Part shown: positions 2,574-38,018 of the stretch, one piece after another
Layout: each line of letters starts with the position of its first letter
Numbering within the stretch: position 1 is the stretch's first letter
Assembly (NCBI GenBank): GCA_015478665.1
Contig: JADMII010000001.1
Span: 247,537 to 311,536, forward strand
From: Dehalococcoidia bacterium
GTDB lineage: Bacteria; Chloroflexota; Dehalococcoidia; DSTF01; JACRBR01
Direction: 5' to 3'
DNA: 64,000 nucleotides
Translations under genes and position numbers: made by a program
The notes under the pieces: generated by a model
What the model saw: the letters and a program-made list of their open reading frames with translations, nothing else
What the model was told of the DNA's origin: nothing
The model's database searches: none

Positions 2574-3854
2574 TCAGGGGACGGGATTCGCCTGGGCGAG
2601 CGTCGCGAGCTCATCGCGGGCGGCGGCGAACTTCTCGCGCGCCTGGTCGAACTTCTCTTCGGTCGTCTGCCGGGCGGCGGCGACGAGCGTGTTGATCTCC
2701 TTCGTCGTCGCGATGATCTGCTCGATCTGCTGCGCCTGGGCCAGGCGGTTCTCGCCGGGCGCCTGCGCGGCGGCGACGGCAACGTCCTTGAGCGCGCGGC
2801 CGCGAACCTCCGTCAGTTGCCGGTCGAGCTGCGCCTGCCGCTGCGCCACCTGCTGGACGTTCTTCACGGCGAAGGCGCCGTTGATCGAAAGCAGCGTCAT
2901 CTTGATCGAGGCGAAGCGCGCGGAGACGGTGGTCGCCGTCTCCTGCAGCGTCGCCACGCCCGCCTGCTCGATCTGCTGGATGACGAGGCGGTCGGCGGGC
3001 AGCCGTGTATACGTCCCTTCGAGCGCCAGCGCGCGGCTCTCGAGCAGTTGCAGCCGGTCCTGCAGCTCCTGGATGCGCGACTGCGCGGCGACATCGCCCG
3101 GCGTCACCTTCGCCTGCTCCGCCGCCACGTACGGCCGCGCCTTCTCGAGGAAGGCGCGCGCCACCGCCGCGGAGACGGTGAAGTCCGAGAAGTGCGTGCC
3201 GTAGCTCTGCTTCAGGGCATCGAGCGACTTGAGCTCCGTGAAGAGGTTCTGCATCTCCCGCTCGAGCTGGCCTTCGAGACCATTCATCTCGTCGGCGAGG
3301 GTGCGCGTCCGGCCCGAGACGAGGGCGCCGATCTCGTCGAGCAGTTGCTGCTGCATCTCCGCGCGCTTCTTCCCGCGCAGCCGGCCGAAGATCGAGTTCA
3401 ACAGGCCGGGCTTCTCGCCACGCTGCACCTGGTCGAGCAGATCCGGCAGCTTGGCGTCGTCGACGCCCTTCTGGAGCCGGCCGAAGAGGTCGAAGACCTT
3501 CGCCGCCGACTTCTTGTCCAACCGCGCCAAAAATCCATCCAGCGTCCGCTGCAGCGCCGTCTCGGAGTCGAGCCCGATCTTGATCACGTCGCTTGAGCGC
3601 ATGGAGCCGAAGTCGAGAGTGGCGACCTGCTTCTCGACCACCGGCACCTGATCCGGCTGCAGCACGATGGCGCCGGTCTCCAGTCCCGGCGCCGTCGCGG
3701 GCACCGGCGCCGCCCCCGCGGCGGTCGAATCCGCACCGCCGGCCGGCGGCGCTGCGCTCCCGTTCGGAGCGGCGCCTGATTGCGGCGCCGGTGCGTCGGT
3801 GGCCGCTGCATCCGCCGCCGTCGGGTCGACTGGGCCGCTGCTGGTTGACTCCAT
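2574..3854 (-). CDS. telA: TelA family toxic-anion resistance protein
   Basis: A 426-residue protein with a ~85-residue Ala/Pro/Gly-rich N-terminus followed by long amphipathic helices. The helical region includes LQDRLQLLESRALALEGTY and a later ARQTTEEKFDQAREKFAAA coiled coil, typical of TelA/KlaA toxic-anion resistance proteins. These are cytosolic helical proteins linked to tellurite resistance and membrane stress; biochemical activity is unknown. The ATG at 3854 was chosen because a GAGGAG site lies ahead of it and the reading frame upstream looks non-coding. First gene of a four-gene operon (telA, terD, telA-like, vWA) and has a perfect TATAAT upstream. Confidence 0.75.
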   Translation of the reverse strand: MESTSSGPVDPTAADAAATDAPAPQSGAAPNGSAAPPAGGADSTAAGAAPVPATAPGLETGAIVLQPDQVPVVEKQVATLDFGSMRSSDVIKIGLDSETALQRTLDGFLARLDKKSAAKVFDLFGRLQKGVDDAKLPDLLDQVQRGEKPGLLNSIFGRLRGKKRAEMQQQLLDEIGALVSGRTRTLADEMNGLEGQLEREMQNLFTELKSLDALKQSYGTHFSDFTVSAAVARAFLEKARPYVAAEQAKVTPGDVAAQSRIQELQDRLQLLESRALALEGTYTRLPADRLVIQQIEQAGVATLQETATTVSARFASIKMTLLSINGAFAVKNVQQVAQRQAQLDRQLTEVRGRALKDVAVAAAQAPGENRLAQAQQIEQIIATTKEINTLVAAARQTTEEKFDQAREKFAAARDELATLAQANPVP

Positions 3855-35370: not shown

Positions 35371-35841
35371 ATGGTCAGCACCACACAGACGCGCATCATG
35401 CCGGCGCTGCGGCGCTCGCAGGCGAACGCCCTCGTTATGTACCTCAACAGCAAGCGCTACCACTGGTTCACCTACGGCCCGCACTTCCGCGACCTGCACC
35501 TGTTCTTCGACGAGATGGCGGCGGCCGCGCTCGCCGAGGTCGACCCGCTCGCTGAGCGGGCACGCATGCTCGGCGGCGATCCGCTCTCGACGCCGGCCGA
35601 GATCGCCGACACGGCATCGGTGCGCATCGCTGAGGGGAAGCCGCAGCCGCGGGAGATGCTCGAGGAAGCACTGGGCAACGAGCGCCAGATCATCGGCGAG
35701 ATGCGCGACGCCGCGCGGGTCGCCGAAGACGAGAACGACTACGGTACCAACGACGTCTTTTCGACGCTCGTCCAGACGCACGAGAAGACCGCCTGGTTCA
35801 TCGAGGAGTTCCTGCGCAACGGCGACGGCATGGGCACGTAG
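35371..35841 (+). CDS. dps: Dps-like ferritin (DNA starvation/stationary phase protein)
   Basis: A 156-residue four-helix ferritin-like protein. The Dps signature YLNSKRYHWFTYGPHFRDLH and FFDEM carries the inter-subunit ferroxidase His and acidic residues, followed by LGGDPLSTPAEIADTASV. Dps 12-mers store iron, remove peroxide and protect DNA. The ATG at 35371 is preceded by GGAGG nine bases upstream. It follows the MFS gene by 82 bp. The N-terminus lacks the Lys-rich DNA-binding tail. Confidence 0.88.
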   Translation: MVSTTQTRIMPALRRSQANALVMYLNSKRYHWFTYGPHFRDLHLFFDEMAAAALAEVDPLAERARMLGGDPLSTPAEIADTASVRIAEGKPQPREMLEEALGNERQIIGEMRDAARVAEDENDYGTNDVFSTLVQTHEKTAWFIEEFLRNGDGMGT

Positions 35842-36061: not shown

Positions 36062-36277
36062 ATGATCAGCAGCCCGTTCGAGAACTACCTCGACCTCGTC
36101 GAGGCCGCCCGCCTGCTCGGCATTCATCCCCAGAGCCTGCGCCGGCTGATCAAGCAGAAGAAGGTGCCTGCGGTGCTCTTCGCTGGCAAGTACCTCATCG
36201 AGCGCGACAAGCTCGAGATGTTCAAGTCCAACTACGACCCGCGCCCCGGCCGTAAGCCGATCCGCCGCCTCATCTGA
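36062..36277 (+). CDS. Excisionase/MerR-fold helix-turn-helix protein
   Basis: A 71-residue protein made up of one winged-helix DNA-binding domain: LDLVEAARLLGIHPQSLRRL, then IKQKKVPAVLFAGKYLIERDKLEMF. This is the HTH_17/excisionase-type fold with a basic tail GRKPIRRLI. Such small proteins are common outside prophages; there is no integrase here, so a phage role is unlikely. It may regulate nearby genes. A TACAAT (36016-36021) lies 40 bases before the ATG. The 220-bp gap upstream (35842-36061) has nothing else. Confidence 0.8.
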   Translation: MISSPFENYLDLVEAARLLGIHPQSLRRLIKQKKVPAVLFAGKYLIERDKLEMFKSNYDPRPGRKPIRRLI

Positions 36278-36337: not shown

Positions 36338-36400
36338 AACAACCACGCTGGTCGCCAGTGACTGGCAACCCGTACCGGGAACGGGCAACCAGCCCGCCTA
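36338..36400. repeat. Low-complexity CCAGTGACTGGCAACC-type repeat
   Basis: The gap between the HTH gene and pyrE holds imperfect, short tandem units: CCAGTGACTGGCAACCCG, GAACGGGCAACCAGCCC. They resemble the CCAGCAACC units at 56185-56300. Confidence 0.35.
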
Positions 36401-37057
36401 GATCAGCGCTTCCGGCGGCAGCTCCAGGAAGGCCATGCTCTTGCGGTACCACTCCTCGCCAATTTTCCCGCTCGACATCAGGTAGTTCAGCATCACCTTC
36501 AGCGTCAACAGTGACACCAGCCGGATGCCCATCTCCTCGAGCCGCTGCCGGCCTCCCGACTCCCGGTCGAAGAGCACGACGGCGTCGCGAACGAAGAGGC
36601 CTTCGTCGCGGAGGCGGTTGGCGGTGAGGATGACGCTGCCGCCGCCGGTCACCAGGTCGTCCATGATCAGCGCGGTCCGGCTCGGGTGGTACAAGCCCTC
36701 GACGTCCGAGTCGAGGTCGTCCTTGTGCGGGTGCAGGTAGATCAGCGGCACGCGCGACGCCAGCGAGAACGCCTGACCGATCATCAGCCCGCCGAACGGC
36801 ACGCCGCAGACAAGGTCGAACGGCGCGCACTGCGGGTTTCGCATCGACTGCAGCGTCTGCAACTCGCGCAGCACGATCTGCGCCGCGCGCGCGAGGGCTG
36901 TCGGATGAGCGACGAGCAGGCGCAGGTTCACGTACACCGGCGAGTGCACTGTCGTGCGGCCGAGCGTGAAGTCACCGAACTGAACCGAACCGAGCCGCCA
37001 GAGGGTGTCGGCGAGCCAGAGGTTGGACTCGTTGTCCAAGCGTTGTTCGGTCATCAT
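36398..37057 (-). CDS. pyrE: Orotate phosphoribosyltransferase
   Basis: A 219-residue type I phosphoribosyltransferase for pyrimidine synthesis (orotate + PRPP to OMP). The PRPP loop is LIMDDLVTGGGS, and GDFTLGRTTVHSPVYVNLR is the OPRT N-terminal signature. A second ATG lies at 37054. There is no ribosome site: a hairpin with a T tract lies 14 bases ahead of the ATG. A 285-nt leader with a 14-codon ORF and several stems precedes it, so expression is probably regulated at the RNA level. No other pyrimidine gene is in the window. Confidence 0.9.
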   Translation of the reverse strand: MMTEQRLDNESNLWLADTLWRLGSVQFGDFTLGRTTVHSPVYVNLRLLVAHPTALARAAQIVLRELQTLQSMRNPQCAPFDLVCGVPFGGLMIGQAFSLASRVPLIYLHPHKDDLDSDVEGLYHPSRTALIMDDLVTGGGSVILTANRLRDEGLFVRDAVVLFDRESGGRQRLEEMGIRLVSLLTLKVMLNYLMSSGKIGEEWYRKSMAFLELPPEALI

Positions 37058-37070
37058 GCGGCGCCAATGG

Positions 37071-37098
37071 AAAAGGCCTTCCGATGGAAAGCCTTTTT
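37071..37098 (-). terminator. Attenuator-like hairpin before pyrE
   Basis: AAAAGGC/GCCTTTT arms (37071-37077 and 37091-37097) plus an inner TTCC/GGAA, loop GAT. Read toward pyrE it ends in TTTTCC 14 bases before the ATG. Because it also reads as a terminator on the plus strand, direction of use is unproven. Confidence 0.5.
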
Positions 37099-37239
37099 CG
37101 TCTTATCTGTCACCGTGGATCCGGCAGGCTCCGGAACGGGTTACCCCCGTGATGGCTGGGACCTGCGTCTTCGACGACACCCGTGCTGCCATTGATGTTG
37201 GAGTCCTGCCCAGCCGCGCGCCCTGCCTGAGGGCAGGGC

Positions 37240-37284
37240 TCACCTGTCAACTTGCCAGATACCCCAGCGGATTCGGTTGTTCAT
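37240..37284 (-). CDS. Leader peptide of pyrE
   Basis: A 14-codon ORF, MNNRIRWGIWQVDR, preceded by AGGAGGTG five bases before the ATG, the best ribosome site in the region. It lies about 58 nt into the transcript and its stop abuts a strong hairpin. It has two Trp and three Arg codons. Function is inferred: coupling of leader translation to downstream transcription or folding. Confidence 0.55.
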   Translation of the reverse strand: MNNRIRWGIWQVDR

Positions 37285-37348
37285 GAGGCACCTCCTGTCA
37301 CTAAGGATTGCCCATGACCGGTGGCACCGCGCCACGACGGCTACCCTC

Positions 37349-37378
37349 ACAGTAGTCCCGTGCGCGCACGCCTGTCAA
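37349..37378 (-). promoter_or_regulatory. Promoter of the pyrE leader
   Basis: TTGACA (37378-37373), an 18-nt spacer, TACTGT (37354-37349) on the minus strand. The transcript would start near 37342. Confidence 0.65.
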
Positions 37379-37775
37379 GCATCTGCCGCGACGCTTCGCC
37401 ATCGCGCTCGATGCCGGGCGCCGGCCGCCCGCCCTCATGCCGGAGACGTCGTGGGCGTCGGCAAGGCGCGTCTCCCGGTGGCGCACGAAGCGGACGCCGT
37501 CCGTCAGGCGCTCCGTCGCGCGGACCGGGTGGTCCGGCGAGCGCCACACAGGTAGCCGGGATGGCTGCGTCATCGGCCACGGTATTCACGGGCGGTCGAT
37601 GGTCGCGCGATTGCGACGCCCGGCGCCCGTCACCGCACGCCCATCACCGCTATGGAGGGCGCGCGCAGGCGCGAGTAGGATTCAGGGGAGCCACGCGGGG
37701 TGCGCGGCCGCGTCCGAACGCGGCGACGCTCACGCCGGCTGATCTGCGATGATCGAGGGGAAACGGAGGCGCAGC
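37379..37775. other. Intergenic region, no gene recognised
   Basis: About 400 bp between the pyrE promoter and the DUF2630 gene. Apart from GC-rich inverted segments around 37490-37550, no feature can be supported. Confidence 0.4.
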
Positions 37776-38018
37776 ATGGAGGACAAGGACGTGCTCGGGC
37801 ATATCGGCAGCCTGGTGGAAGAGGAGAAGCGGCTGCGGGGCGAGCTGCGCGGCGCGCCAGAGGCGGACCCGCGCCATCAGCGGCTGCACTCCGTCGAGGT
37901 GAGCCTCGACCAGTGCTGGGACCTGCTGCGCCAGCGACGCGGCCGCCGCCACGCCGGCGAGGACGCCGACGCCGCGCAGCCGCGCTCGCCGGACACCGTC
38001 GAGGGGTACGTGCAGTAG
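37776..38018 (+). CDS. DUF2630 family protein
   Basis: An 80-residue protein of the DUF2630 family: MEDKDVLGHIGSLVEEEKRL, then SVEVSLDQCWDLLRQRRGRR and a C-terminal SPDTVEGYVQ. It is a small helical soluble protein of unknown function, well known in Actinobacteria and some Chloroflexota. GGAGG six bases before the ATG at 37776 fixes the start. Confidence 0.85.
   Translation: MEDKDVLGHIGSLVEEEKRLRGELRGAPEADPRHQRLHSVEVSLDQCWDLLRQRRGRRHAGEDADAAQPRSPDTVEGYVQ

Follow-up and report, generated by a model that had tools for sequence, protein, structure and literature searches.

In Escherichia coli, the pyrBI and rph-pyrE attenuators place a translated leader and an intrinsic terminator before a pyrimidine gene. 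Dual-function small RNAs, such as SgrS/SgrT and RNAIII/hld, are independent genes in which an embedded short ORF is combined with a structured RNA. In Sinorhizobium meliloti, the attenuator sRNA rnTrpL is accompanied by a 14-amino-acid leader peptide, peTrpL, acting in trans (PMC7298713). In the arrest peptide ErmBL, stalling takes place when Val9-Asp10 is next to Lys11 and depends on Arg7 and Val9-Lys11 (PMC4935803), and yfr6, or Downstream-peptide RNA, of cyanobacteria is ~250 nt long and contains a very short ORF that is conserved (PMC2864571). Here, we describe the leader of a pyrE-type gene from a Dehalococcoidia bacterium, which belongs to a previously uncatalogued RNA family of ~270 nt in Chloroflexota with an embedded conserved peptide, referred to below as GVWQVD RNA.

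The window that was analysed is a stretch of 64,000 nt, and the leader lies on its minus strand, from 37378 to 37058. The promoter, the translated-looking 14-codon ORF and the adjacent hairpin of the original prediction were all found there, and the ORF is led by a Shine-Dalgarno sequence. The sigma-70-type promoter (37349-37378) consists of TTGACA (37373-37378), an 18-nt spacer and a weak -10 hexamer, TACTGT (37349-37354); because this hexamer matches at only 3/6 positions, a stricter promoter scan omits it. The Shine-Dalgarno sequence AGGAGG (37291-37296), of which a similar string precedes nearly all ORFs of the relatives, is followed by the ORF MNNRIRWGIWQVDR (37240-37284, ATG to TGA), whose conserved core codons (37246-37263) read GIWQVD here and GVWQVD elsewhere. 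Hairpin P1, GCCCUGCC-CUCA-GGCAGGGC (37220-37239), begins 6 nt 3' of the Asp codon. The folded domain downstream (37210-37123) is a predicted three-way junction composed of the closing helix P2, GGCAGG-A-CUCC/GGAGCCUGCC, in which the 5' strand GGCAGGACUCC (37200-37210) pairs with the 3' strand (37123-37132), the P3 arm (37152-37192) and the P4 hairpin ACGGGGGUAACCCGU (37136-37150), the latter frequently having a GNRA-like loop in relatives. An intrinsic-terminator-like hairpin, AAAAAGGCUUUCC-AUC-GGAAGGCCUUUUCC, with a T-tract (37069-37098) stands right before the pyrE-type gene (36398-37057, minus strand), whose ATG at 37057 is 11 nt past the terminator element and, as had been proposed, has no good Shine-Dalgarno sequence just upstream.

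When folded alone, the piece from the hairpin to the terminator forms P1, P2(P3,P4) and the terminator, and its fold is better than those of 200/200 dinucleotide shuffles (z -3.4; -2.85 for the whole leader). The further stems that had been proposed are supported, and the P2(P3,P4) domain is conserved in relatives. Two other details are not conserved. Four TGACAG copies are indeed present (37377, 37300, 37249 and 37112), but 12 pyrE-linked relatives carry 0-2 of them, so the repeats are considered coincidental. Likewise, the GGCTGGG/CCCAGCC pairing that was thought to close a domain exists, but the relative L002 has GATGGG at this place and the conserved closing helix is P2.

No known PyrR site, T-box or riboswitch had been recognized in the leader, and a scan of the window with the Rfam 15 covariance models agreed, giving zero matches at gathering and nothing sensible at E<=10; in 15 further loci, the element had no Rfam 15 match at E<=0.1. 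The plus-strand string GGTGGCACCGCG (~37314-37326, near 37320), which lies within the leader and resembles the T-box core, has no Rfam support and is probably a chance occurrence. A tmRNA identity was ruled out, the tmRNA of this genome being a separate locus (G000:C65, 126.5 bits). A literature search retrieved no paper containing 'GVWQVD', and Chloroflexi leader topics gave nothing relevant.

The protein encoded downstream has its best NCBIfam match to PRK13809 (1.9e-37, below the cut-off of that model) and its best PDB match to the orotate phosphoribosyltransferase (OPRT) 2wns (3e-31), with zero hits in a Pfam search, and it is matched in 44/60 related genomes. The genome of the window has a second OPRT-like gene, flanked by argD-like and ruvB genes (L230:5353-6006, minus strand; G000:C14). 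Since families f2 and f3 have no close homologue of this second gene, the sequence comparison suggests that the ordinary pyrE is the one in the window. In its surroundings are genes for a DUF2630 protein (37749-38018, plus), a small HTH_17 protein (36062-36277, plus) and a ferritin-like protein (35371-35841, plus).

Upstream regions of OPRT orthologues from different families contain the same peptide, in the forms MNDRIRWGVWQVDT, MKKATRVLWGVWQVDR, MTDRVRWGVWQVDS and MTDRIRFGVWQVDC. The recurring motif is [YWFL]-G-V-W-Q-V-D-x-stop, and it occurs alongside P1, the three-way junction and an intrinsic terminator. Among 118 distinct copies, the codons for G, V, W, Q, V and D have an entropy of 0.2-0.5 bit at the first and second positions and of 1.05-1.95 bit at the third (0.6 bit for the single-codon W), a pattern that shows selection on the encoded peptide at the protein level, as would be expected of a ribosome-arrest leader peptide of the ErmBL or TnaC type. 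Strong conservation of stems and peptide in relatives supports this part of the original prediction, which lack of conservation, or an Rfam match, would have contradicted. Outside GVWQVD, the peptide is hardly conserved; the residue after D is most often R or S and varies widely, the stop codon falls 0-1 codon past D in 83/119 copies and never at 2-4 codons, and in several lineages the ORF continues beyond D. Changed cores, including GVCQVD, GVFQVD, GVNQAD and GVWLFP, are present in some copies, mostly in multi-copy genomes, and some copies have C, F, L, N, M or R in place of the near-invariant Trp. One genome (G142, loci L189-L195) has seven copies, of which several have changed cores (GVWLEI, GVWIFP, GVMEVY) and keep P1, possibly as a result of paralogue divergence. 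A tandem-duplicated motif was also observed in the peptide MQMKNPRAFLGAWQVDQAFLGVWQVD at L181:135-214.

The RNA fold is conserved together with the peptide. P1 starts 6-8 nt past the Asp codon in 96/119 copies, at exactly 7 nt in 64, and this spacing is steady though the position of the stop varies. Because the MAFFT alignment of the pyrE group (A4) is locally out of register by one column, covariation was counted on alignments A2 and A3, in which 6/8 and 7/8 P1 pairs, respectively, are changed on both sides. Across 27 free-standing copies, 88.6% of the cells of P1 and P2(P3,P4) are paired, compared with 34-46% in controls with slid partners; 33/37 pairs show double changes, and double-change cells number 126 vs 21-39 in the slid controls. 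Covariation in these alignments thus strongly supports the P1 + P2(P3,P4) fold. A model built from free-standing copies without any pyrE locus (R2) also finds its matches at the expected place in the pyrE loci L019, L020, L016, L002, L013 and L012 (E 0.0003-0.04, 325 kb). On the window, R2 recognizes only P1 (20 bits), so the three-way junction there, including both P2 strands and P3, rests on the window's own fold and on close relatives. By eye, an alternative pairing between P1 and the 5' arm of the terminator reaches 5-6 bp in family f4 only and is weak in f1, the family of the window. An antitermination pairing did not emerge from the analysis.

A model comprising the ORF and P1 (R1) was used to estimate the spread of the family, with E<=0.01 as the cut-off for class and phylum counts. 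R1 matches were obtained in 17/18 genomes of the order, counting the window's own GIWQVD copy, which is the only copy in its genome; a search for the GVWQVD codon pattern matched 16/18 of these genomes, in some cases by chance. At the cut-off, matches occurred in 105/393 sampled genomes of the class and 79/400 of the phylum (77 and 44, respectively, in the tables at E<=1e-6), figures that are estimates because the E-values are rough and the filters strict. An exact-pattern scan of 84,980 species yielded matches in Dehalococcoidia, Thermomicrobiales and other Chloroflexota, and six matches from elsewhere, all of which lie inside unrelated longer reading frames. In one Thermomicrobiales genome, a GGGTTCC repeat array lies downstream of an RNA copy (L066, ~3030-3110).

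Consensus promoters with a score>=10, for the most part located 95-130 nt upstream of the GVWQVD codons, precede 37% of 113 copies vs 1.5% of shuffles, and terminators with a score>=20 follow 76.5% of copies vs 0.8% of shuffles, usually starting 140-190 nt past the core. From these predictions, it is well supported that GVWQVD RNA is mostly its own transcription unit of ~270 nt with promoter and terminator, and equally that the unit comprises a Shine-Dalgarno sequence, a translated ORF of ~13-16 codons ending in GVWQVD-x-stop, P1, P2(P3,P4) and the terminator. In being a predicted independent unit with conserved structure outside the ORF, it resembles dual-function small RNAs such as SgrS/SgrT and RNAIII/hld, with which it shares no homology. 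It is also similar in size to yfr6 and likewise has a conserved, very short ORF, but yfr6 has its structured element 5' of the ORF (PMC2864571), whereas GVWQVD RNA has it 3' of the ORF.

According to a home-made amino-acid-composition score, by which gene calls are approximate, the next gene of 112 copies with enough flank is on the same strand in 63, on the opposite strand in 42 and not called in 7. The same-strand neighbours include ~15 pyrE genes and ~10 genes for secreted proteins, and the remainder are close to even in orientation. Several copies in genomes of the order are far from pyrE and followed after the terminator by a gene on the other strand; one genome (G017) has one pyrE-linked and one free copy, and three others (G008, G010 and G015) have pyrE without the RNA and a free-standing copy elsewhere. 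In families f77 and f78 (G311, G231, G239 and G360), the ORF and P1 occur without junction or terminator before protein genes (L185:260-9149, L187, L188, L198, L080, L083, L092 and L093), with six such leaders in G311 and up to four in G231. Judged by eye, nearly all products of these genes start with an evident signal peptide; they include C39-like peptidase, matrixin and DUF6345 proteins, and for most of them Pfam gave no family.

These observations do not sustain the idea of a pyrE- or pyrimidine-specific leader, because pyrE directly follows the RNA in only some families (f1, f3, f4, f25, f36 and f39), whereas in most genomes the RNA is free-standing with randomly oriented neighbours. If an attenuator had evolved for pyrE, UTP or another pyrimidine signal would control termination via leader translation or ligand binding. 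The occurrence of the RNA directly before pyrE in these families would agree with this, as would the distance from the terminator to the pyrE start codon, which is between 11 and about 45 nt and makes read-through necessary. The leader of the window also resembles pyrBI and rph-pyrE in having a translated-type ORF and an intrinsic terminator before pyrE. However, the ORF ends at 37240, 142 nt short of the terminator start at 37098, and so does not reach the terminator as pyrBI-type leaders do; in addition, the peptide is conserved and the family is not tied to pyr genes, most copies being distant from any of them. Together with the genomes whose pyrE lacks the RNA, this makes a pyrimidine attenuator very unlikely. 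In f1, the RNA has a divergent gene upstream and its terminator is separated from the pyrE start by 11 nt, so read-through is the only evident route to a pyrE mRNA, and the RNA is in effect a pyrE attenuator there, regulated or not; a non-consensus internal promoter for pyrE is nevertheless conceivable. Attenuation by tryptophan might be suspected from the 1-2 Trp codons of a short leader ORF that is followed by stems and a terminator. The ORF has neither the control-codon run nor the downstream amino-acid gene of trp- and his-type attenuators, and its single near-invariant Trp is substituted in some copies; on the grounds of gene contexts and these substitutions, Trp attenuation was rejected as highly improbable.

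The reading that we tentatively prefer, with slightly less than even confidence, is that the window leader is a pyrE-linked copy of the phylum-wide GVWQVD RNA, whose fold or fate would be set by a ribosome that pauses at GVWQVD against P1. The constant distance from the Asp codon to P1 despite a moving stop suggests that the ribosome is placed against P1. While the last conserved codons are decoded, P1 would be at the mRNA entry of the ribosome, and GVWQVD, as a nascent chain within the exit tunnel, may cause a pause, probably in response to some ribosome state or small molecule. The pause would keep P1 open and thereby alter how the RNA folds, how stable it is or how it terminates. On this view, free-standing copies would be translated dual-function small RNAs whose output is exerted in trans or is the peptide itself; in f1, this switch would determine how much read-through reaches pyrE, and in f77 and f78 the target of the stripped-down leader of ORF and P1 would be secreted-protein mRNAs. 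The copies of G142 that lack QVD and retain P1 fit poorly with an indispensable stall motif. A more specific version, which is possible but rather doubtful, sees a housekeeping-like, near single-copy sensor RNA of translation state, phylum-wide and acting in trans, that depends on the GVWQVD-paused ribosome and, in certain lineages, was captured as a pyrE attenuator or, stripped down, as a leader of secreted-protein mRNAs. By analogy with ErmBL, GVWQVD could also be a drug- or stress-sensing arrest peptide that causes stalling, Asp being in the P site, once the tunnel is occupied by an inhibitor or metabolite. Like ErmBL-type leaders, GVWQVD RNA has a short ORF, a nearly invariant V-D, which is essential at the ErmBL stall site, and RNA hairpins thereafter (PMC4935803), and its D is most often followed by R or S; unlike them, it has no downstream resistance gene, the residue after D varies widely, its hairpin lies at a fixed 7 nt, and it is phylum-wide. 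Sharing two residues amounts to no more than a lead, and we consider this reading unlikely. It is still less probable that the locus is a small-protein gene whose peptide acts in trans, with the structured part serving as a 3' UTR that has a stabilising role. A free-standing gene with a conserved peptide would suit this, and peTrpL is a precedent. rnTrpL also has a short leader ORF, stems and a terminator, with a released RNA and peptide that may both act (PMC7298713). GVWQVD RNA differs from rnTrpL in having no trp genes or Trp-codon run, in being usually free-standing, and in its conserved three-way junction and different peptide. The hardly conserved remainder of the peptide and the ORFs extending past D speak against a small-protein gene, and the fixed P1 spacing and deep covariation of the junction argue for a role of the RNA.

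GVWQVD RNA, a previously uncatalogued structured RNA conserved across Chloroflexota, combines a nearly invariant mini-peptide with a covarying fold, the two being set a fixed distance apart. With it, control through the ribosome and its nascent chain becomes directly testable in a poorly studied phylum, and the 14-codon ORF, which is missed by routine annotation, offers a simple handle for toeprinting.
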